Assembly: GCA_028866655.1 (NCBI GenBank)
Contig: JAGWHQ010000002.1
Location: 1 to 64,000, forward strand
DNA from: Nitrososphaerota archaeon
GTDB lineage: Archaea; Thermoproteota; Nitrososphaeria; Nitrososphaerales; Nitrosopumilaceae
Direction of reading: 5' to 3'
Length of the DNA stretch: 64,000 nt
Part shown: positions 17,022-64,000 of the stretch, in pieces
Position numbering within the stretch: the stretch's first letter is position 1
Layout: every line of letters begins with the position of its first letter
Position numbers and translations under genes: made by a program
Notes under the pieces: model-generated
The model's input: the letters and a program-made list of their open reading frames with translations, nothing else
The model's database searches: none
What the model was told of the DNA's origin: nothing

Positions 17022-17138
17022 ATGAATTATGTGCATACTATGTTAAATGTAAAATCTATTCGTGATATGGATGACATTGTTCCTGAACAATGTATATCAA
17101 TTCTTTATTTATTGAATGTGGGGAATCATGTGAAATGA
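17022..17138 (+). CDS. possible 38-aa leader ORF
   Basis: ATG 17022 opens a 38-codon frame (MNYVHTMLNVKSIRDMDD...) ending at TGA 17136-17138. The TGA overlaps the ATG at 17135 of the giant surface protein in an ATGA arrangement. The protein has no hydrophobic segment and no known motif. Its position right behind the likely transcription start and its tight overlap suggest a translated leader coupled to the main ORF. The alternative is that it is unused and the giant protein starts further upstream at ATG 17090. Confidence 0.35.
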   Translation: MNYVHTMLNVKSIRDMDDIVPEQCISILYLLNVGNHVK

Positions 17139-20100
17139 ATCTAAGAATTCTACTCTTCCTTTCTGTTATGGCAGTACTGGTCTTTCCACAATATGCCTTT
17201 TCTATCGAGCCTATCTCCAACAGTTCCAATACTGTCGTTTCTAACAGTACAAACTCCAATACTGTTATTCCAAATAATGTAAACTCCAATACTGTCGTTT
17301 CTAACAGTACAAACTCCAATACTGTTATTTCCAATAATGTAAAATCAAATACCGCAATTTCTAATAATACGAATTCATCTATAGTGCCTAAAACGACCAT
17401 CACGATTGATTCAACTTCTAGTACCATTACATCAAACTCTGGTATTGCGAAACAAGATTCTCCTGTATCATTCACTGTGCGAGTCATGGATACATCCACC
17501 TTGCCAACTATTACTACTGGAACTGTGACTTGGAGCGACGGTAACCTTGGTGGCACATTCAATCCATCTTCCTGCATCCTTTCATCTGGAACTTGTACTG
17601 TGACATACACTTCTCCTACAAATTATGGTGGTACAATAACGATAGTCACTAGTTATAATGGAGATGGAACACACTCTGGTAGTACTGGCACATCAACTTT
17701 GACTGCAACTACTATCCGTAGTGTTACTACAACTATCACATCTGCCACAAGTTCAGGATCTCAAGTGCAATTCACAGCAACACTTGCAGATGTATCTAGT
17801 CCACAAATTACTCCAACTGGAACTGTGACCTGGAGTGATGGTAATATTGGAGGAACATTTGATCAATCTTCCTGCATCCTTTCGTCTGGAATTTGTACCG
17901 TGTCATACACCCCACCTGCAAATTATGGGAACAACATATTGATAACTACTAGCTATACAAATAACGGGTCATTTTCCACAAGTACTGGAACTTTTACTCT
18001 TATGGCACATGCTCTACCTAATACTAGTACTACAGTAATACCAAGCGTTTCTACTGTAAACCGAGGATCTCAGGTACAATTTACTGCGAAAGTGGATGAT
18101 GCCTCTAACTTGCCAACAATTCAAACTGGAACTGTGACTTGGAGCGACGGTAACCTTGGTGGCACATTCAATCAATCTTCTTGTACAATTTTATCTGGAA
18201 CTTGTACTGTATTGTACACACCACCTGCATCTACAACAAACTTGGTCACAATCACTGCTACATATGGTACAAATAATGAATATTCTGGCAGTACTGGAAC
18301 ATCTATTTTGACAGTAAATTCTCTACCTAGTACTACTACCACTGTGACACCGGCAACTGGTACGATAAATCAAGGATCCCAGATACAATTTACTGCTACA
18401 GTAACTGGTGCATCCAACCAACAAATTATTCCAACTGGAACTGTGACTTGGAGCGACGGTAACCTTGGTGGCACATTCAATCCATCTTCCTGCATCCTTT
18501 CGTCTGGAACTTGTACTACTACATACACGGCACCTCTGAATTATGATGGCGCAATAACCATAACCACCAGTTACGGTGGGGATACTGCCAATTCTGGCAG
18601 TACTGGAACATCTGCTTTAACACTGGACGCTTTGCATAATACTGTAACCACTGTTACTCCAAATGTTGCTACTGTGGCACAAGGATCTAAGATACAATTC
18701 ACAGCAACACTTGCAGATGCTTCAATCTCATCAATCGTAACTGGAAATGTATTGTGGAGTGACGGAAACGCGGGAGGCTCATTTGATAATGCTTCATGTA
18801 CGCTTTCATCTAATACATGTGCTGTATCATATACTCCATCTAAATATTCTACAAATGCTGTGACAATCACTGCTAAATATGGTGGTGACAGTGCTCATTC
18901 TGGTAGTTTTGGTACTGCTCAGGCAACAGTAATTGTACTTCCATCATCGCTCTTGTTGAACACTGATCAATCATATTATGCATATGGGGATGTGGTTACG
19001 CTCTCTGTACTTCTTCCAGGTCAAAGTCTGCAGAACATTGCTGTTGGAGTGTCAAATCCAAGCGGTGACAATATTATATCAAGAACAATAACTACTGACG
19101 AAAATGGAACTGGTTCTTTACAGTTCAAGATTCCTAATACGTATCAGACTGGTGTATATCAAGATACAGTAAATGCAATTGTTGATGGTAGAAACTATAC
19201 AAATTCAACCGAGTTTAATGTAATAAAATCTAGGGGTGTTACTATTGACTCGGTACAAATTACAAATCAGCAAGGAAATCCAGTGTCAATTTTACCACAA
19301 GGTCAAAATGGATTTGTCAAAGTCTCCCTTTCATCAGGAGAAAAAATGCCTACACTCTTGACACTTAACCTCTTTGATGCAAACCAAAGTAGTCTTGGTA
19401 CGACATCTATCAAGTCAATCTTGAATCCTGGAACATCTCAGATGACGCTCTCGTTTTTCATCCCATCTAATGTGCAAGTAGGAGTGGCAAATGTCTTCAC
19501 TGATGTATATTCAGACTGGCCAAATAATGGTGGAACACCGCTTACTGCAGAATCTTGTCTTGCAGCAGATCTTCAAAATGTGTCTACGCTTCCTGCTTCG
19601 TATGTCCCATCCACGCCACACAGTTGTACCGGCGCTACCAGTGGAGCATCTGGAGTTGGAAATGCGATATCTACTGCAATGACAAATAACCAAGCTGAAG
19701 TTACACTTGGAGTTGCAATTCAAAATGATTCAATGACGTTTATGAGTCCAACGCAGGCACATCTTCTTGCTCTTGCATATGCAAATAACACTGGACAAAA
19801 TGTTGCAAACAATTCTGTTGGAACAGTAAATGTAAATCTGAACAGTCTTGGTACAAATGGAACAAGTGCTGGAATTGTCGGTAATGTTACTGGAATTAGT
19901 TCAGCGCAATTTACAACCCTGGCAGGCCCTGATCTTCAGAACAATCCTGTGGCACTGAAAATTTTACAGGAAATTCAACAATCAAAGCAACAAGTGGCAA
20001 ACATAATTGGAAATCAGACTGCTGCACGACTTAACCAACAATTGGTTTTACAGCAGCGACAAGCAGCTGCTAGTCAACTCAAACAAGACCTTAATACGCT

Positions 20101-20818
20101 TGCAACAGCAAGTGCATCTACTACTCCTGATGCTGCATATGCCAGTTTTCTTACAACCGTTGGCAATAACAAGACTCAATCCGTATTTCAAGATGAATTT
20201 AATTTCATGAAACAAAGAATCACGGTTGCAAATACTGCCATGCAGTCCGTCATCACTAGTGGCGGAAGTTTGGATCAAGCACTTGCAACATTTAACCAAT
20301 ATGCAACCGTAAATCATGTTCAAATGGTTGGCCTGAACAATGAACTAAATGTTGAATATGGTCTTGCAGATAGTAAAATACAATCTTGTTTTAATAATGA
20401 AGGACAGCTAACTGTTGTAAACGGAGTAAACCCGTGTATTTCAAATATAGAAAATAATTCTACTGGACCAACTGGAATTTCAATTGCATCTGTACAACCT
20501 ACGGACGAACAAGGAAATCCAGTATCTTTAATCCAACGAGGACAAACTGGATATATCAAAGTGATAATTGATTCTAATGTAAATACTCAATCTCTTATTA
20601 CCGTAAACCTCTTTGATTCAAATGCGAGCAGTCTTGGTACTGCGTCTGCCCAGTATACTCTAAATCCGGGACAATCTGAAGTAATCTTACCTTATTACGT
20701 TCCAGCTCAATCTGGAACTGGACTTGCTAGTGTTTATGCAAATGTATTTACCGACTGGCCAAATAAAGGAGGAATACCACAATCCAATGAACTATCATAT
20801 TTTGTCGGTCTTTCATAG
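17135..20818 (+). CDS. giant Ig-like repeat surface protein
   Basis: The start at ATG 17135 gives a clean signal peptide (MNLRILLFLSVMAVLVFPQ...); ATG 17090 would add 15 residues before it. The mature protein of about 1200 residues opens with an Asn/Thr/Ser repeat (NSNTVVSNST units), then five Ig-like (Big_3/5-like) domains of about 100 residues. Each carries TGTVTWSDGN-x-GG-x-F and a C-x5-7-C pair (SSCILSSGTC). A sixth beta domain follows, and then two copies of a domain with QGNPVS...G-x-x-x-V-x-L flanking a long helical Gln-rich insert (about residues 760-1060). Many N-x-S/T sequons suggest heavy N-glycosylation. No C-terminal anchor is seen, so it may be held by partners or secreted. Confidence 0.85.
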   Translation: MNLRILLFLSVMAVLVFPQYAFSIEPISNSSNTVVSNSTNSNTVIPNNVNSNTVVSNSTNSNTVISNNVKSNTAISNNTNSSIVPKTTITIDSTSSTITSNSGIAKQDSPVSFTVRVMDTSTLPTITTGTVTWSDGNLGGTFNPSSCILSSGTCTVTYTSPTNYGGTITIVTSYNGDGTHSGSTGTSTLTATTIRSVTTTITSATSSGSQVQFTATLADVSSPQITPTGTVTWSDGNIGGTFDQSSCILSSGICTVSYTPPANYGNNILITTSYTNNGSFSTSTGTFTLMAHALPNTSTTVIPSVSTVNRGSQVQFTAKVDDASNLPTIQTGTVTWSDGNLGGTFNQSSCTILSGTCTVLYTPPASTTNLVTITATYGTNNEYSGSTGTSILTVNSLPSTTTTVTPATGTINQGSQIQFTATVTGASNQQIIPTGTVTWSDGNLGGTFNPSSCILSSGTCTTTYTAPLNYDGAITITTSYGGDTANSGSTGTSALTLDALHNTVTTVTPNVATVAQGSKIQFTATLADASISSIVTGNVLWSDGNAGGSFDNASCTLSSNTCAVSYTPSKYSTNAVTITAKYGGDSAHSGSFGTAQATVIVLPSSLLLNTDQSYYAYGDVVTLSVLLPGQSLQNIAVGVSNPSGDNIISRTITTDENGTGSLQFKIPNTYQTGVYQDTVNAIVDGRNYTNSTEFNVIKSRGVTIDSVQITNQQGNPVSILPQGQNGFVKVSLSSGEKMPTLLTLNLFDANQSSLGTTSIKSILNPGTSQMTLSFFIPSNVQVGVANVFTDVYSDWPNNGGTPLTAESCLAADLQNVSTLPASYVPSTPHSCTGATSGASGVGNAISTAMTNNQAEVTLGVAIQNDSMTFMSPTQAHLLALAYANNTGQNVANNSVGTVNVNLNSLGTNGTSAGIVGNVTGISSAQFTTLAGPDLQNNPVALKILQEIQQSKQQVANIIGNQTAARLNQQLVLQQRQAAASQLKQDLNTLATASASTTPDAAYASFLTTVGNNKTQSVFQDEFNFMKQRITVANTAMQSVITSGGSLDQALATFNQYATVNHVQMVGLNNELNVEYGLADSKIQSCFNNEGQLTVVNGVNPCISNIENNSTGPTGISIASVQPTDEQGNPVSLIQRGQTGYIKVIIDSNVNTQSLITVNLFDSNASSLGTASAQYTLNPGQSEVILPYYVPAQSGTGLASVYANVFTDWPNKGGIPQSNELSYFVGLS
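17217..17340 (+). repeat. 60-nt tandem repeat coding for Asn/Thr stretch
   Basis: Two near-identical copies of a unit of about 60 bases (starting near 17227 and 17287, CCAATACTGTCGTTTCTAAC...) encode NSNTVVSNST-type repeats at the N-terminus of the mature surface protein. The second copy drifts into a third degenerate unit. Tandem repeats of this kind change copy number by slippage. Confidence 0.7.
17515..18890 (+). repeat. five ~300-bp Ig-domain repeats, mosaic identity
   Basis: The Ig-domain codons repeat about every 300 bases. The block around ACTTGGAGCGACGGTAACCT is identical in repeat 1 (about 17515), repeat 3 (about 18125) and repeat 4 (about 18434), while repeat 2 (about 17818, ACCTGGAGTGATGGTAATAT) and repeat 5 (about 18740) differ. 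Repeats 1 and 4 agree almost completely over about 85 bases. Non-adjacent copies being most alike suggests gene conversion or recombination within the gene. Confidence 0.7.
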
Positions 20819-21287
20819 GAAATCCCTCCGTGGATTCCTGTTTTTTGCAGTAATTGCACTGTTAGCATTACCCGGAATCTTGAATTCCTTTGCTCAGGAG
20901 GAACAGTCAATTGTGATTACCACAAACAAGAATAGTTATCTGCCTGGTGACACTGTTATGATAAATGGTACTGTAACAGGACAACCAAATGCACTTGTTG
21001 CTCTGCAAATAAAAGACTCGTCTGGAAACTTGATATTAATCAGGACTGTATCATCTGATCAAAACGGGAACTTTGTACTGCAGTTCAAACTTCCTCCAAC
21101 TGCTACATCTGGAAATTTTAACATTATTGCTAGTGCAAAAGTAAATGGATTTACTGTCACACAAACCAAGACCATGGCTGCAACAGTTCCTGAATTTGGT
21201 CCACTTGCGATGATATCGTTTGGGGTATCTTTTATCATGATAATTACATTGTTTACTTTCTCAAACAAATTCCACAATCATATCTAG
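20787..21287 (+). CDS. PEFG-CTERM surface protein
   Basis: This 166-residue protein uses ATG 20787, overlapping the giant surface protein by 32 bases in another frame; that start puts the N-terminal helix (RGFLFFAVIALLALPGILN) in signal-peptide position. The core is one Ig/FN3-like domain (NKNSYLPGDTVMINGTVTGQ...). The C-terminus has VPEFGPLAMISFGVSFIMI, then basic residues: the PEFG-CTERM tripartite sorting signal (motif, helix, basic tail) of thaumarchaea. It is the predicted substrate of an archaeosortase such as that at 55763. Gene order suggests a shared transcript with the giant protein. Confidence 0.85.
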   Translation: MNYHILSVFHRKSLRGFLFFAVIALLALPGILNSFAQEEQSIVITTNKNSYLPGDTVMINGTVTGQPNALVALQIKDSSGNLILIRTVSSDQNGNFVLQFKLPPTATSGNFNIIASAKVNGFTVTQTKTMAATVPEFGPLAMISFGVSFIMIITLFTFSNKFHNHI

Positions 21288-21562: not shown

Positions 21563-21610
21563 GTTCTTTCTTATATTAGATATACAAAGGTAAGCATATA
21601 AGTCAGAAAG

Positions 21611-21627
21611 TGATAGTATAGTTATCA
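21611..21627 (+). promoter_or_regulatory. inverted repeat in HxlR promoter, possible operator
   Basis: The sequence TGATAGTATAGTTATCA ends 17 bases upstream of the HxlR start. Its outer arms TGATA/TATCA are complementary, and its core GTATAGTTA resembles half of the 17-bp palindrome in front of the TFB gene (22147-22163). An autoregulatory operator for the HxlR protein is a reasonable inference. The match between the two sites is partial. Confidence 0.4.
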
Positions 21628-21644
21628 AGTGAGTAGATGGTAAG

Positions 21645-22052
21645 TTGAAAGAAGAAGAGTGCAAAGTTCTCCTTGAATCCTTGAAGGCATGCCCTATTGA
21701 TAATACTTTTAAAATTATTGGAAAGAAATTCACTGTCCATATTTTACGTAACATGACAAAACTAGGCCAAAACAGGTTCAATCAATTTTTGGACTCTGTG
21801 GAGGGAATAAACCCAAAGACCTTATCCGCAAGACTGCGCGAGATGGAGAAAAATGGTATAATTGAGAAGAGAGTCTATGCTGGAACACCTGTGAAAATTG
21901 AATATGCTATAACAAAAAAGGGATTGGCACTAAATCCCATACTTGAATCCATGGCTGCTTTTTCCATGCAGTATTGTGCTAAAGATATATTCAAGGATGG
22001 TAAACCGCGACTCTTAAAAGAGATCTATTCAAAACCAATAGAAACTGCATGA
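21645..22052 (+). CDS. HxlR-family transcriptional regulator
   Basis: This 135-residue protein starts at TTG 21645 (the nearby ATG 21637 runs into a stop after three codons). The winged helix-turn-helix of the HxlR family is clear: CPIDNTFKIIGKKFTVHILRNM, then NRFNQFLDSVEGINPKTLSARLREMEKNGIIEKRVY, then YAITKKGLAL. Cys16 in the KACPI motif is the position used as redox or electrophile sensor in several HxlR proteins (HypR, YodB). The upstream IR and neighbouring TFB-pirin and MFS genes suggest a stress-response regulon. DNA binding is expected as a dimer. Confidence 0.9.
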   Translation: MKEEECKVLLESLKACPIDNTFKIIGKKFTVHILRNMTKLGQNRFNQFLDSVEGINPKTLSARLREMEKNGIIEKRVYAGTPVKIEYAITKKGLALNPILESMAAFSMQYCAKDIFKDGKPRLLKEIYSKPIETA

Positions 22053-22146
22053 GTGTTGTTAATTTTCAAACAAAAGATCTTGGTGCAGATTACTACTAGT
22101 TAATCTGCTTTCCATCTGCTCACTTGATATTTTAAATACTTTCCTG

Positions 22147-22163
22147 TGTATAGTAACTATACA
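22147..22163. promoter_or_regulatory. 17-bp perfect palindrome upstream of TFB
   Basis: TGTATAGTAACTATACA is a perfect inverted repeat with arms of eight bases around a central A. It ends one base before the TFB ATG (22165), and a TATA-like TTTTAAATA lies at about 22131-22139. At this position a bound protein would block transcription start or translation. The HxlR promoter holds a related sequence (GTATAGTTA, 21616-21624). An operator is the best reading; the binding protein is inferred to be the neighbouring HxlR. Confidence 0.55.
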
Positions 22164-22164
22164 A

Positions 22165-23100
22165 ATGATATCTAATAAACAAAAACTTGTGATTGAAAAA
22201 GATAAAACATGTTTACATGATGGTAAATCACACGGACCATTTGTAACTGATAGCGCTCGCGGAGAAATCATATGTGCAAGATGTGGTGCAGTTCTTGCAG
22301 ACAAGGTAGAAGATTATGGTCCTGAACAAAAGTCGTTTACAGTAGATGATTACAATAATAGTACTAGAACTGGACTTGGATCTGCATTATCAATTCATGA
22401 CAAGGGATTGTCTACTATAATTGGAAATACAGATCGTGATGCATCAGGAAATTCAATATCTACCTACATGAAGTATACCTTCAATAGATTACGAACATGG
22501 GATAGTCGTAGTAAATCAAATTCAACTGAAAGGAATTTGCGTTCTGCATTTGTAATAATGGGTGCAATCCAATCAAAGATTGATATTTCTGATGCAGTGG
22601 TTGAACGAGCTGCATATTTGTATAGAAAAGCATTGACAAAAAACATCATCAGAGGAAGAACAATCTCTGGTATGATTCTTTCTGCATTATATGTCGCATG
22701 CAGAGAATCTGGAGTGCCAAGAACTTTGCAGGATATATCTAGTGCTGGAAATATTTCATTCAAGAATCTGTCTAGACACTATAGGGTATTTGTCAAGGCA
22801 TTGGAATTACAAGTTGATTCGTTGAATCCATCTGAATTTGTCACAAAGATAGGAACTTCTGTAGGTCTTAGCGAAAAGGCACAAAGGGACGCACTTGGTA
22901 TAATAGAAATGGCCAAGAAAAAAGGCATTGCTGATGGGAAAAATCCTTTATCGCTTGCAGCAACCGCATTATTCGTGTCTGCACTGATGAATGGAGAAAA
23001 GGCGACCCAAGACCAGATAGCCAAAGCCTCTGGCATCAGCAGCGTGACAATACGCAATGTTGCAAAGGTGTTTCGAAAAAAGATGGATATTGAGAAATAA
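22165..23100 (+). CDS. tfb: transcription initiation factor IIB (TFB)
   Basis: This 311-residue archaeal general transcription factor recruits RNA polymerase to TBP-bound promoters. The N-terminal zinc ribbon has C16 and H18/H23 in the first knuckle, and C37-x2-C40 (EIICARCGAVLADKVEDYGPE) in the second. The first knuckle departs from CxxC. A B-finger/linker region follows, then two cyclin-like repeats, the first with RTISGMILSALYVACRESG and the second with LSLAATALFVSAL and a final HTH (DQIAKASGISSVTIRNV). Thaumarchaea carry several TFB paralogs. This one overlaps a pirin gene (TAATG), so it is probably a specialised copy. Confidence 0.95.
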   Translation: MISNKQKLVIEKDKTCLHDGKSHGPFVTDSARGEIICARCGAVLADKVEDYGPEQKSFTVDDYNNSTRTGLGSALSIHDKGLSTIIGNTDRDASGNSISTYMKYTFNRLRTWDSRSKSNSTERNLRSAFVIMGAIQSKIDISDAVVERAAYLYRKALTKNIIRGRTISGMILSALYVACRESGVPRTLQDISSAGNISFKNLSRHYRVFVKALELQVDSLNPSEFVTKIGTSVGLSEKAQRDALGIIEMAKKKGIADGKNPLSLAATALFVSALMNGEKATQDQIAKASGISSVTIRNVAKVFRKKMDIEK

Positions 23101-23828
23101 TGGGCATAAAGATAATCAGGTCCGATGAACACTATGAAAACAAGACTGACTGGCTTAGAACATTTCATCATTTTTCATTTGCAGACTATCAAAACCCTGA
23201 CAAGATGAATTTTGGACCGTTACGTGTATTCAATGATGATGAAATACAACCTAGCACCGGATTTGACTTTCATCACCATCGTGACATGGAGATTGTAACA
23301 TATGTCATAGATGGAGAACTAGAGCACAAGGACAATCAAGGAAATCATGGCATCATACATCCAGGCGAAGTCCAAAGGATGACTGCCGGATCCGGAATAA
23401 TGCACGCTGAATCAAACTCCTCAAATGATAAATCCTTGAGACTGTTACAAATGTGGGTTCTTGCAAACAAGAAAAATCTTACACCCTCTTGGGAACAAAA
23501 AAAGTTTACAAAAAAAGAAAGAACAAACAAGCTAGTGCCAGTAGTTGTATCTGAAGATGATCCTAATACCAATGCATTACACCTGCATCAAGATGTTACC
23601 TTTTACCTCTCTACCTTAACTGCTAATGGTCAAGTACAACACAAGTTGAAATCTGAAAGAAAATCATACTTGTTTGTAATCGATGGTAAAATAAAACTAG
23701 GAAATCATACCATGCAAACAAGAGATGCTGCAATGATATCACAAGAGGACAATTTGGTAATGCGTGCTGAAGAACCAACGGAATTAATCTTAATCGATCT
23801 GCCCGAACAATATGCAGTCAATATGTAA
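23100..23828 (+). CDS. pirin-family bicupin
   Basis: This 242-residue bicupin starts at ATG 23100, overlapping the TFB stop by one base (TAATG). The pirin signature is present: FDFHHHRDMEIVTYVIDGELEHKD, then GSGIMHAESN, which supply the His, His, His, Glu metal ligands of the first cupin. Family members are metal-dependent quercetinase-like dioxygenases or redox-sensing regulatory cofactors. The C-terminal cupin lacks a clear second metal site. Direct translational coupling to a TFB suggests a link to transcriptional stress control; the substrate is unknown. Confidence 0.9.
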   Translation: MGIKIIRSDEHYENKTDWLRTFHHFSFADYQNPDKMNFGPLRVFNDDEIQPSTGFDFHHHRDMEIVTYVIDGELEHKDNQGNHGIIHPGEVQRMTAGSGIMHAESNSSNDKSLRLLQMWVLANKKNLTPSWEQKKFTKKERTNKLVPVVVSEDDPNTNALHLHQDVTFYLSTLTANGQVQHKLKSERKSYLFVIDGKIKLGNHTMQTRDAAMISQEDNLVMRAEEPTELILIDLPEQYAVNM

Positions 23829-23854
23829 AATTCTCAATTTTATTTAAAATCATT

Positions 23855-23881
23855 TTGTTATCAACATGAGATTTATAACAA
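23855..23881. promoter_or_regulatory. inverted repeat in the MFS promoter
   Basis: TTGTTAT (23855-23861) and ATAACAA (23875-23881) form 7-bp arms around 13 bases, just upstream of the MFS start at 23900; the right arm overlaps a TATA-like TTTATAA. GTTATCAA here also occurs in the HxlR promoter (21621-21628). A regulatory site, possibly for HxlR, is suggested but weaker than the palindrome in front of the TFB. Confidence 0.3.
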
Positions 23882-23899
23882 TTAATTTGAATCAAGACA

Positions 23900-25324
23900 A
23901 TGCAGTACAAGTGGATAGCACTAACAAATACCACGATCTGCATATTGATGGCATCACTTGATGCTAACATCCTCATCATAGCTCTGCCTAGACTTGTACC
24001 AGATCTGCATGTTTCACTGATTGAAACAATATGGATAATTCTTTCATATGGCCTTGTTACCTCCTCAGTTCTTCTCAGTTTTGGTAGGTTAGCAGATATG
24101 TTTGGTAGGGTCAAACTCTACAACTTTGGCCTGATACTTTTCACTATTGCATCCTTTCTTTGTAGTCTTGCGCAGACTGGGACTGAACTTATACTATTTA
24201 GGATACTCCAAGCATTTGGAGCTGCATTTCTTTTCTCTAATAGTGCTGCTATCTTGACTGATGCTTTTGATGAGAAAGAAAGGGGCAAAGCCCTTGGGCT
24301 GAATCAAATATCCATTGTGATTGGCTCTGCATTGGGTCTAGTGCTTGGAGGTATCTTGACTGAAATGCTTGGCTGGAGAGCAATCTTTTGGGTCAACATC
24401 CCAATAGGAATTTTTGCAATTGTTTGGTCCAAGGCAAAACTTCGGGAACTTGGAACTATAGTGAAAGGCAAGATAGACTGGATTGGAAATTTAGTTCTTG
24501 TTGTAGGTCTAGTTATGGTAATGCTTGGAATAACTTTTGGTTCTTTGCAGGTTATACCTTCTTTTGCTGCAATGTTTCTCTTGGCTGGAGGATTTTGTAT
24601 GTTGCTATTGTTTGGTTATGTTGAATCCAAAGTCAAAGAGCCAATGTTTGATCTATCTCTTTTCAAGCTTAGATTTTTCTCTGCGGGAAACATCACTATA
24701 TTTCTAAACGCATTGGCAAGGGGGGCGCTTGTGTTGATAATGGCATTTTATCTCCAAGGGCCATCAATGAGACTTAATCCGTTCACAGCTGGTCTTTACT
24801 TGATACCTGTCTCTTTTACAATTGCAACATTTGGACCAATAAGTGGATGGCTATCTGACAGATATGGTTCTAGGTTTCTTACAATACTTGGATTGTTAGT
24901 GTCTGCAATTGGATTTCTAATGCTTTCACAGATTGGACCTGTTACAAGCTTTAATGATTTGGTTTTACCGCTTTCACTAGTTGGCGCAGGGATGGGACTA
25001 TTTGCATCTCCAAATAGATCATCGATAATGAACTCGGTTCCACCTCAAAGACGTGGAGTTGCAGCTGGCATGAGTACTACCCTTGTAACACTAGGCAACA
25101 TAATTAGTCTGGGAGTGTCATTTGCACTACTTGCTAGCACCGTTCCACTGTATGAACTAGAATCAATTTTTCTGGGCTCTTCTAGTACCTTGAATGCTGG
25201 AGCAGCAATACCGAGTTTTATAAAATCAATTCACCTGATATTTTACATCTCTACCTTTGTCTTGATCGCATCAATTATTCCTGCTATCGTACAACGTTCT
25301 CAAAAGGAACGTGTGATATACTGA
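23900..25324 (+). CDS. MFS transporter, DHA2 drug-exporter type
   Basis: This 474-residue major facilitator has about fourteen helices. Motif A (GRLADMFGRVKLYNFG) and the motif-C-like GSALGLVLGGILTEMLGWRAIFWVNIP are those of DHA2 drug:proton antiporters. An acidic residue in helix 1 (SLDANILIIALPRL) and a second motif A-like stretch (GWLSDRYGSRFL) complete the pattern. It likely exports a toxic organic compound. It follows pirin by 71 bases, with a separate promoter region. Its position next to HxlR and pirin fits inducible efflux. Confidence 0.9.
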   Translation: MQYKWIALTNTTICILMASLDANILIIALPRLVPDLHVSLIETIWIILSYGLVTSSVLLSFGRLADMFGRVKLYNFGLILFTIASFLCSLAQTGTELILFRILQAFGAAFLFSNSAAILTDAFDEKERGKALGLNQISIVIGSALGLVLGGILTEMLGWRAIFWVNIPIGIFAIVWSKAKLRELGTIVKGKIDWIGNLVLVVGLVMVMLGITFGSLQVIPSFAAMFLLAGGFCMLLLFGYVESKVKEPMFDLSLFKLRFFSAGNITIFLNALARGALVLIMAFYLQGPSMRLNPFTAGLYLIPVSFTIATFGPISGWLSDRYGSRFLTILGLLVSAIGFLMLSQIGPVTSFNDLVLPLSLVGAGMGLFASPNRSSIMNSVPPQRRGVAAGMSTTLVTLGNIISLGVSFALLASTVPLYELESIFLGSSSTLNAGAAIPSFIKSIHLIFYISTFVLIASIIPAIVQRSQKERVIY

Positions 25325-63369: not shown

Positions 63370-64000
63370 TTGGGTAAGAAAATAAAAATTGCAATTGCTG
63401 GTGTTGGCAACTGTGCTTCTGCAATTATTCAAGGCGGAAAATACTATACTGAAAATACTCATGATACTATAGGTCTGACCGATTTTAACATTGGAGGATA
63501 TGTACCAGGCGACATTGAAGTGGTTGCTGCATTTGATGTTGCAGATACCAAAGTGGGAAAAGATGTCTCAGAAGCAATCTATGCTAGACCAAACAATACC
63601 ATTACTATAGCTGAGGTACCTCACATGGGTGTAACCGTGCAAAAAGGTCCTACCTTGGATGGAATAGGTAGGCATTTGAGCCGAGTCGTAACCGTTTCTC
63701 AGGAACCAGATGTTAACGTCAAAAAGGTTCTCCAAGATACTGGTGCTGAGATGCTTGTAAATTATCTACCTGTGGGAAGTACTAATGCAGTAAAACACTA
63801 TGCAAGTCAAGCCCTTGAGGCAGGAATAGGATTTCTTAATGCAATTCCTGTGTTCATAGCATCAGAACCAAAATGGCAACAGGCCTTTGCTGACAAAAAA
63901 ATTCCTCTTGCAGGCGATGATGTAATGAGTCAGCTTGGAGCTACAGTTGTTCACAAGACTCTTGTGAAACTCTTTGTAGATAGAGGTGTACAGATTGATG
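63370..64000 (+). CDS. inositol-3-phosphate synthase (partial, runs off the window)
   Basis: The frame starts at TTG 63370 and is open to the right edge. It begins GKKIKIAIAGVGNCASAIIQGG, a Rossmann start with the myo-inositol-1-phosphate synthase pattern, and continues with NIGGYVPGDIEVVAAFDVAD, VNYLPVGSTNAVKHYASQAL and PLAGDDVMSQLGATVVHKTL. The enzyme turns glucose-6-phosphate into inositol phosphate for archaeal lipids. At least 210 residues lie in the window; the C-terminus is missing. A TATA-like TAATATAAT at about 63337 lies about 30 bases upstream. Confidence 0.9.
   Translation, partial: MGKKIKIAIAGVGNCASAIIQGGKYYTENTHDTIGLTDFNIGGYVPGDIEVVAAFDVADTKVGKDVSEAIYARPNNTITIAEVPHMGVTVQKGPTLDGIGRHLSRVVTVSQEPDVNVKKVLQDTGAEMLVNYLPVGSTNAVKHYASQALEAGIGFLNAIPVFIASEPKWQQAFADKKIPLAGDDVMSQLGATVVHKTLVKLFVDRGVQID

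Follow-up and report, generated by a model that had tools for sequence, protein, structure and literature searches.

HxlR-type sensors that control azoreductases are already known in bacteria. YodB of Bacillus subtilis controls azoR1 and yodC (PMC6943732) as well as spx, which encodes a global RNA-polymerase-binding regulator (PMC6057675). It binds a palindrome, written TACT-N7-AGTA in B. subtilis, while its Cys6 takes quinone adducts and forms intersubunit disulfides with Cys101 (PMC8063818). The regulon of QsrR includes azoR1 (PMC6798810). Repression of a gene for transcription factor B (TFB, the archaeal TFIIB homologue) by a redox regulator is also known, and this principle is not wholly new: the oxidant-responsive RosR of Halobacterium salinarum directly represses tfbB via a palindromic site and thereby acts indirectly on further genes (PMC4287449). 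Mesophilic ammonia-oxidising archaea (AOA) have 4 to 11 TFB copies per genome (PMC7554672), and TFB switching is described in AOA biofilms (PMC12448741). Here we describe a locus that ties one TFB to a candidate sensor, operator and promoter element; it lies in a 64,000-nucleotide stretch of archaeal DNA (the window; contig JAGWHQ010000002.1, positions 1 to 64,000, forward strand).

Genes for an HxlR regulator, a TFB, a pirin and a DHA2/EmrB-like exporter of the major facilitator superfamily (MFS) follow one another in tandem in the window. An earlier note on this DNA had described the four genes in this way, and profile searches agreed for all of them. The named relatives of the window HxlR belong to Candidatus Nitrosotalea, N. 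devanaterra included, and the window was therefore assigned to Nitrosotalea, a genus of acid-soil AOA; this cultured relative carries the same locus (L054/L080). We consider it likely, from the comparisons below, that HxlR is a thiol-based sensor which represses a dedicated TFB-detoxification operon via an operator shared by both promoters, forming a stress switch. The features concerned are as follows, in window positions.

21572..21590, + strand: operator twin TATATTAGATATACAAAGG in the HxlR promoter; conserved in 30 HxlR-TFB loci
21596..21601, + strand: HxlR TATA-like box, ATATAA; from the sequence, conserved in the alignment
21645..22052, + strand: HxlR/DUF24 regulator, 135 aa, TTG start, with Cys6, Cys16 and Cys111; Pfam HxlR PF01638, E 5.7e-23
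22099..22138, + strand: second cis element (upstream element) plus TATA box, GTTAATCTGCTTTCCATCTGCTCACTTGATATTTTAAATA; 35 matches in the genus, 0 in the reversed control
22130..22138, + strand: TFB TATA box, TTTTAAATA; from the sequence, conserved in alignments
22147..22163, + strand: palindromic operator TGTATAGTAACTATACA (GTATA-N5-TATAC); from the sequence, conserved in 30 loci
22165..23100, + strand: TFB, 311 aa, ATG at 22165; two cyclin-like TFIIB repeats, PF00382, E 1.9e-31
23100..23828, + strand: pirin (quercetinase-type bicupin), 242 aa, its start overlapping the TFB stop as TAATG (23100); Pfam Pirin, E 7.7e-36
23900..25324, + strand: DHA2/EmrB-like MFS exporter; Pfam MFS_1, E 2.9e-48

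RESULTS

Operator at the TFB and HxlR promoters

The perfect 17-bp palindrome TGTATAGTAACTATACA was found exactly where the earlier note had placed it, at 22147-22163 between the TFB TATA box and the ATG. The palindrome by itself was rejected as evidence, since about two perfect 8+1+8 palindromes per window are expected by chance: the window has two, and dinucleotide-preserving shuffles had 0 to 5, with a mean of about 2. The sole other one in the window is TCACAAGACTCTTGTGA at 63951-63967. Support for a function of the site comes from conservation, not palindromy. Alignment detected GTATA-N5-TATAC or a close variant directly before the TFB ATG in 12 of 12 HxlR-TFB-pirin genomes and in 18 further HxlR-TFB loci (30 in all), two of which have a different gene order. 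Both the palindrome and the TFB-pirin order had been expected by the earlier note to recur in related archaea; the palindrome was kept upstream of TFB in all of these loci, whereas the TFB-pirin order proved to be lineage specific. Across the 30 loci, TATA-N5-TATA and the trailing AAATG were almost invariant, the inner five bases were GTAAC, GTAGA or close variants and the surrounding intergenic sequence had drifted. The core pattern runs on to 22167, reaching into the TFB ATG.

The twin site TATATTAGATATACAAAGG lies upstream of the HxlR TATA box, 5 bp away from it, and is near-invariant at TATA....TATA.AAA.G across the 30 loci; the two operators of locus L126 are TATAGTTACTATACAAAGG (HxlR promoter) and TATAGTTACTATACAAATG (TFB promoter). 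When each HxlR promoter was matched to its own genome's TFB operator, the best match scored above dinucleotide shuffles for 26 of 28 loci (p of 0.036 or lower), these loci sharing ancestry and not being independent tests. Two other sites put forward in the earlier note were rejected. The first, GTATAGTTA, downstream of the HxlR TATA box, has a centre that varies freely between species, the true counterpart of the TFB operator being TATATTAGATATACAAAGG at 21572-21590. The second, an inverted repeat TTGTTATCAA...TTTATAACAA in the MFS promoter (23855-23881), was seen in the window alone, other MFS-bearing genomes differing there. At 21611-21627, near the expected HxlR start site, TGATA...TATCA arms were kept in most pirin-type loci while the seven bases between them vary; these arms are possibly an extra regulatory or leader element.

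Distribution of the operator among genomes

In the window's genome the exact pattern TATANTNNNTATASAAANG occurred in two places only, the HxlR and TFB promoters; no other operators were found there at exact match, and matches with 2 mismatches were below the level of the reversed control. Among 37 genomes of the genus, 62 matches were detected, against 3 for the reversed pattern. Sorted by position, 22 lay at HxlR, 25 at TFB, 12 at a second HxlR gene (HxlR-B) and 3 in other promoters, namely those of a DUF2798-MFS operon (L178), an operon of a short-chain dehydrogenase/reductase (SDR) and an MFS exporter (L180) and a DUF2798-like gene (L181). HxlR-B has a DNA-binding region nearly identical to that of the window HxlR and the same operator in its own promoter. 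The presence of the same site before two HxlR genes suggests HxlR as the binder and is the best in silico argument for it. Because the operator is conserved, is common to both promoters, has no other exact match in the genome and also precedes an HxlR paralogue, the predicted control of the TFB-pirin operon by HxlR is well supported, and the earlier note's claim that HxlR controls a dedicated TFB was borne out to this extent.

HxlR-B (L177, L186 and others) is divergent from the gene for a small Cys-rich protein, MECKSGTC...CGCG, of ∼112 aa and without a Pfam match, and DoxX is nearby.

Constant HxlR-TFB pair and variable cargo

HxlR and TFB were paired in 31 genomes, 28 of Nitrosotalea and three of a sister genus; the genes were in tandem in 28 genomes and had AzoR between them in three (L115, L120, L179). 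Twelve genomes had pirin in the slot after TFB, seven had an AzoR-like FMN reductase there (L112, L113, L116, where it is interrupted, L117, L118, L123 and L124) and seven had no comparable gene; two contigs end too early for the slot to be read. On the TFB tree the pirin label requires at least three changes and the AzoR label more, indicating that the slot was refilled. Pirin was rejected as an obligate partner of TFB, as the pair occurs without it and the slot can hold AzoR. Judged from coordinates, pirin and AzoR adjoin in five other places (G002, G015, G019, G022, G031), which places both enzymes in one functional set. MFS comes after pirin in 8 of the 12 pirin-type genomes, there without an operator, and is absent at that position in L047, L048, L050 and L055; an MFS operon elsewhere (L178) does carry the operator. 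The earlier note had regarded pirin and MFS as partners of the regulator. Both are present here, but they are lineage specific and the constant unit is HxlR-TFB only.

Irregular versions of the locus were observed in two genomes. In L048 (G036, Nitrosotalea sp. FS), there are two overlapping pieces of HxlR, a frame change divides TFB and two tandem copies of the TFB promoter element are present (C2:12865, C2:12988), reflecting either local duplication or misassembly. In L179 (G017, Nitrosotalea sp. TS), HxlR and TFB are apparently frame-disrupted while the operators at TFB and at an SDR-MFS operon are intact, due to either circuit decay or sequencing errors.

Standalone pirins of the genus (L059, L060, L062, L064, L066, L070) have a different conserved palindrome, GGTAGTAAATTACTACC or near it, and usually a convergent third HxlR gene just downstream, with ∼33% identity to the window HxlR; together these are probably a separate HxlR-pirin circuit. 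Neither the operator nor the second element described below was found in their promoters, and they were rejected as targets, carrying another palindrome instead.

Second element in the TFB promoter

A further motif, GTTAAYYTGNTWT-N8-TYACTT, with fixed spacing, precedes the TATA box of TFB. With up to 2 mismatches allowed, this second element had 35 matches genus-wide against 0 in the reversed control: 25 in TFB promoters and ten elsewhere, at AzoR (3), SDR (3), DUF2798-MFS, SDR-MFS, DUF2798 and Cys-rich protein genes. The DUF2798-MFS, SDR-MFS and DUF2798 promoters resemble the entire TFB promoter, together with its operator and first codons, and look like copies of it, while the AzoR and SDR promoters have the upstream element and at most a decayed operator. 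The SDR-MFS operon (L180:2838-3730) opens with a short leader ORF, MIVQTSSNKQEEDNLG, which is like the TFB N-terminus and overlaps the SDR start; apparently the TFB promoter and first codons were moved there by copying. The element was not found at more distant AzoR and SDR paralogues, which serve as a negative control. Neither operator nor second element was found at the AzoR and SDR genes of the window's own genome, which were rejected as targets, both elements being missing from their promoters.

On the simplest reading, which is plausible from this distribution, TFB as a product of the operon reads the second element, the main alternative being a separate activator. A tentative extension, possible but short of probable, would make the HxlR-linked TFB an alternative initiation factor, with a role like that of alternative sigma factors in bacteria. 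This TFB would recognise an extended element of its own, CTTAC-N5-GTTAAYYTGNTWT-N8-TYACTT next to the TATA box, and drive a small electrophile-detoxification regulon (TFB, AzoR, SDR, MFS exporters and the Cys-rich protein) at a level set by HxlR, members having joined by copying of the whole TFB promoter, start codon included.

Sensor, TFB and pirin proteins

The HxlR winged-helix domain (PF01638) scored 81 bits against a cut-off of 20.8. Among solved relatives YodB of B. subtilis was the best (E 6.8e-17); HxlR, HypR (YybR) and QsrR came next. Cys16 aligns with YodB Cys6, in agreement with the sensing position that the earlier note had assigned to it, and Cys111 aligns with YodB Cys101; both are invariant in 11 close orthologues, with a mean identity of 94%. 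The AzoR-like partner enzyme is of the quinone-reductase type. An oxidant or quinone signal for HxlR is supported, as a prediction, because the counterparts of YodB Cys6 and Cys101 are conserved and an AzoR-like reductase replaces pirin in other species.

None of the other five TFBs of the genome exceeds 50% identity to the window TFB, and the HxlR-linked TFBs formed one clade in a tree. A Zn ribbon was detected (Pfam E 2.9e-7, the match beginning at profile position 11) without the canonical C-x2-C...C-x2-C arrangement: the second pair is present, while the first knuckle is C-x6-H-like (CLHDGKSH) and its Cys is lost in L110. The C-terminal helix reads SSVTIRNVAK, compared with TEVTIRNRYK in paralogues L003 and L004 of the window's genome. 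The corresponding C-terminal part contacts the TFB recognition element (BRE) in known TFB-BRE complexes. An altered promoter preference of the HxlR-linked TFB is possible on these grounds.

The best solved relative of the pirin was YhhW/quercetin 2,3-dioxygenase (E 8e-47). Its bicupin metal site of three His and one Glu (H58, H60, H102, E104), with positions as in human pirin, is invariant in 15 sequences.

Neighbouring genes and host genome

The closest NCBIfam model for the MFS protein was EmrB/DHA2 efflux, slightly under the model cut-off, and its gene has its own promoter-like TATA without an operator. Upstream of HxlR are genes for a large secreted repeat protein (17090-20818, 1242 aa) and then a small MG2-like membrane protein (20811-21287), a pair syntenic upstream of HxlR in pirin-type genomes. 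The host genome, available as a 1.42 Mb draft, comprises 93 contigs and encodes six TFBs.

DISCUSSION

Proposed mechanism and alternatives

Sequence comparison provided the gene order, both operators, the cargo exchange, the conserved cysteines and the second element, from which we infer binding, sign of control, ligand and the reader of the second element as follows. A YodB-like HxlR homodimer would bind GTATA-N5-TATAC in the two promoters. Judged from the TATA box at 22130-22138, transcription of TFB should begin near 22158-22164, which is within the palindrome or at its edge; as the operator lies over this expected start, HxlR should repress TFB-pirin, by keeping RNA polymerase from assembling or escaping. 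In the HxlR promoter itself the operator abuts the upstream edge of the TATA box and BRE, and autoregulation would result, either as repression, with the BRE covered, or as activation. An electrophile or oxidant, at best guess quinone-like, would modify Cys16, perhaps with a Cys16-Cys111' disulfide, leading to release of HxlR and production of the TFB-pirin message. Pirin (AzoR in sister species) would then detoxify the compound, and TFB would join the TATA-binding protein and RNA polymerase at the few element-bearing promoters, its own included, giving positive feedback.

Several observations weigh against this proposal. In the window's genome the second element was detected at TFB only, even with up to 3 mismatches, and no wider TFB regulon is visible. 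In L119 and L121, the two exceptions in the shuffle comparison, the operator of the HxlR promoter is degraded. Cys111 is replaced by Tyr or Phe in the distant orthologues L124 and L126, indicating that a two-cysteine switch is not universal. The window sites (TATAGT-N1-ACTATA/GTATA-N5-TATAC) do not fit the published spacing of the B. subtilis YodB site, TACT-N7-AGTA (PMC8063818). Furthermore, HxlR of B. subtilis is an activator (PMC6943732), so that repression is uncertain. For the earlier note's idea that the TFB activates a wider regulon, relatives offer a lead that is concrete but indirect, the second element being common to TFB and detoxification genes there, but not in the window's genome itself.

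The restriction of the element to TFB in this genome would also fit an account in which the role of HxlR is limited to autoregulation and to switching of a local detoxification operon. The TFB would then be a passenger or a weak general TFB that prefers no particular promoters, and an activator would read the second element. Element-bearing AzoR and SDR promoters mostly have no intact HxlR operator, so that a separate activator could read the element, and its direct-repeat-like parts with a fixed 22-bp spacing are as for an activator upstream of a TATA box. However, the HxlR-TFB pair was kept in 31 genomes while the cargo varies, making TFB the constant part, and the TFB subfamily has a C-terminal helix of its own, differing from that of two paralogues; we regard this account as possible but somewhat doubtful. 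Activation by HxlR at these promoters, as by B. subtilis HxlR at hxlAB, with an aldehyde or other metabolite as the signal, appears unlikely. In archaea, repressor sites mostly lie downstream of the pre-initiation complex and activator sites upstream of it (PMC4287449). The HxlR promoter has its site before the TATA box, in the usual place for an activator, and B. subtilis HxlR is linked to formaldehyde (PMC6943732), but the TFB site downstream of its TATA box is in the usual repressor place, YodB ranks first and HxlR second among the solved relatives, and the partner AzoR points to quinones. Binding of the palindrome by another protein (HxlR-B, another regulator or TFB itself) is quite improbable: cross-binding by HxlR-B is likely where both exist, given the same site and the nearly identical DNA-binding region, but 34 of the 62 operator matches lie in HxlR or HxlR-B promoters and the window's genome has both operators with one HxlR of the group (E up to 1e-12), although HxlR-B may be missing from the assembly.

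Comparison with known systems

Repression by a thiol-based HxlR, if true, would exemplify how a general transcription factor can become stress specific in an archaeon, and would indicate how archaea of acid, phenol-rich soils may cope with quinone-like toxins. The locus, with the operator-like sequence at both promoters in about 30 species, suggests chemical stress wired to a dedicated transcription start factor. No description of an HxlR-TFB(-pirin) unit was found in the open literature searched, most subscription journals being outside its scope, and the earlier note likewise knew of none for TFB-pirin. As far as searched, four features are new: the dedicated sensor-TFB pair, the operator common to both its promoters, the detoxification slot with its exchangeable content and the second element.

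The window locus is like YodB/AzoR1/Spx of B. subtilis and QsrR of Staphylococcus aureus in its HxlR/DUF24 sensor, two aligned cysteines and palindromic operator; the QsrR site, presumably GTATA-N5-TATAC, would equal the window palindrome. YodB and QsrR control an AzoR-type quinone reductase, and here AzoR lies in the cluster of ∼10 related genomes, while the window slot holds pirin in its place. The window locus further differs in being archaeal and in that its cluster includes a general transcription factor, although control of spx by YodB is a functional parallel to control of TFB by HxlR, with TFB in place of Spx. With its six TFBs, the window genome fits the expanded TFB families of AOA; that literature, as far as consulted, describes no signal or target promoters for a single AOA TFB, whereas the TFB described here comes with a sensor, an operator and a candidate element. 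RosR and TfbB, compared by function only, are alike in that a redox regulator represses a TFB gene. RosR, however, acts as a network hub that binds 252 loci, and its tfb target is not presented as a dedicated gene next to it (PMC4287449), whereas the window sensor is an HxlR that adjoins its TFB and has very few operators per genome.

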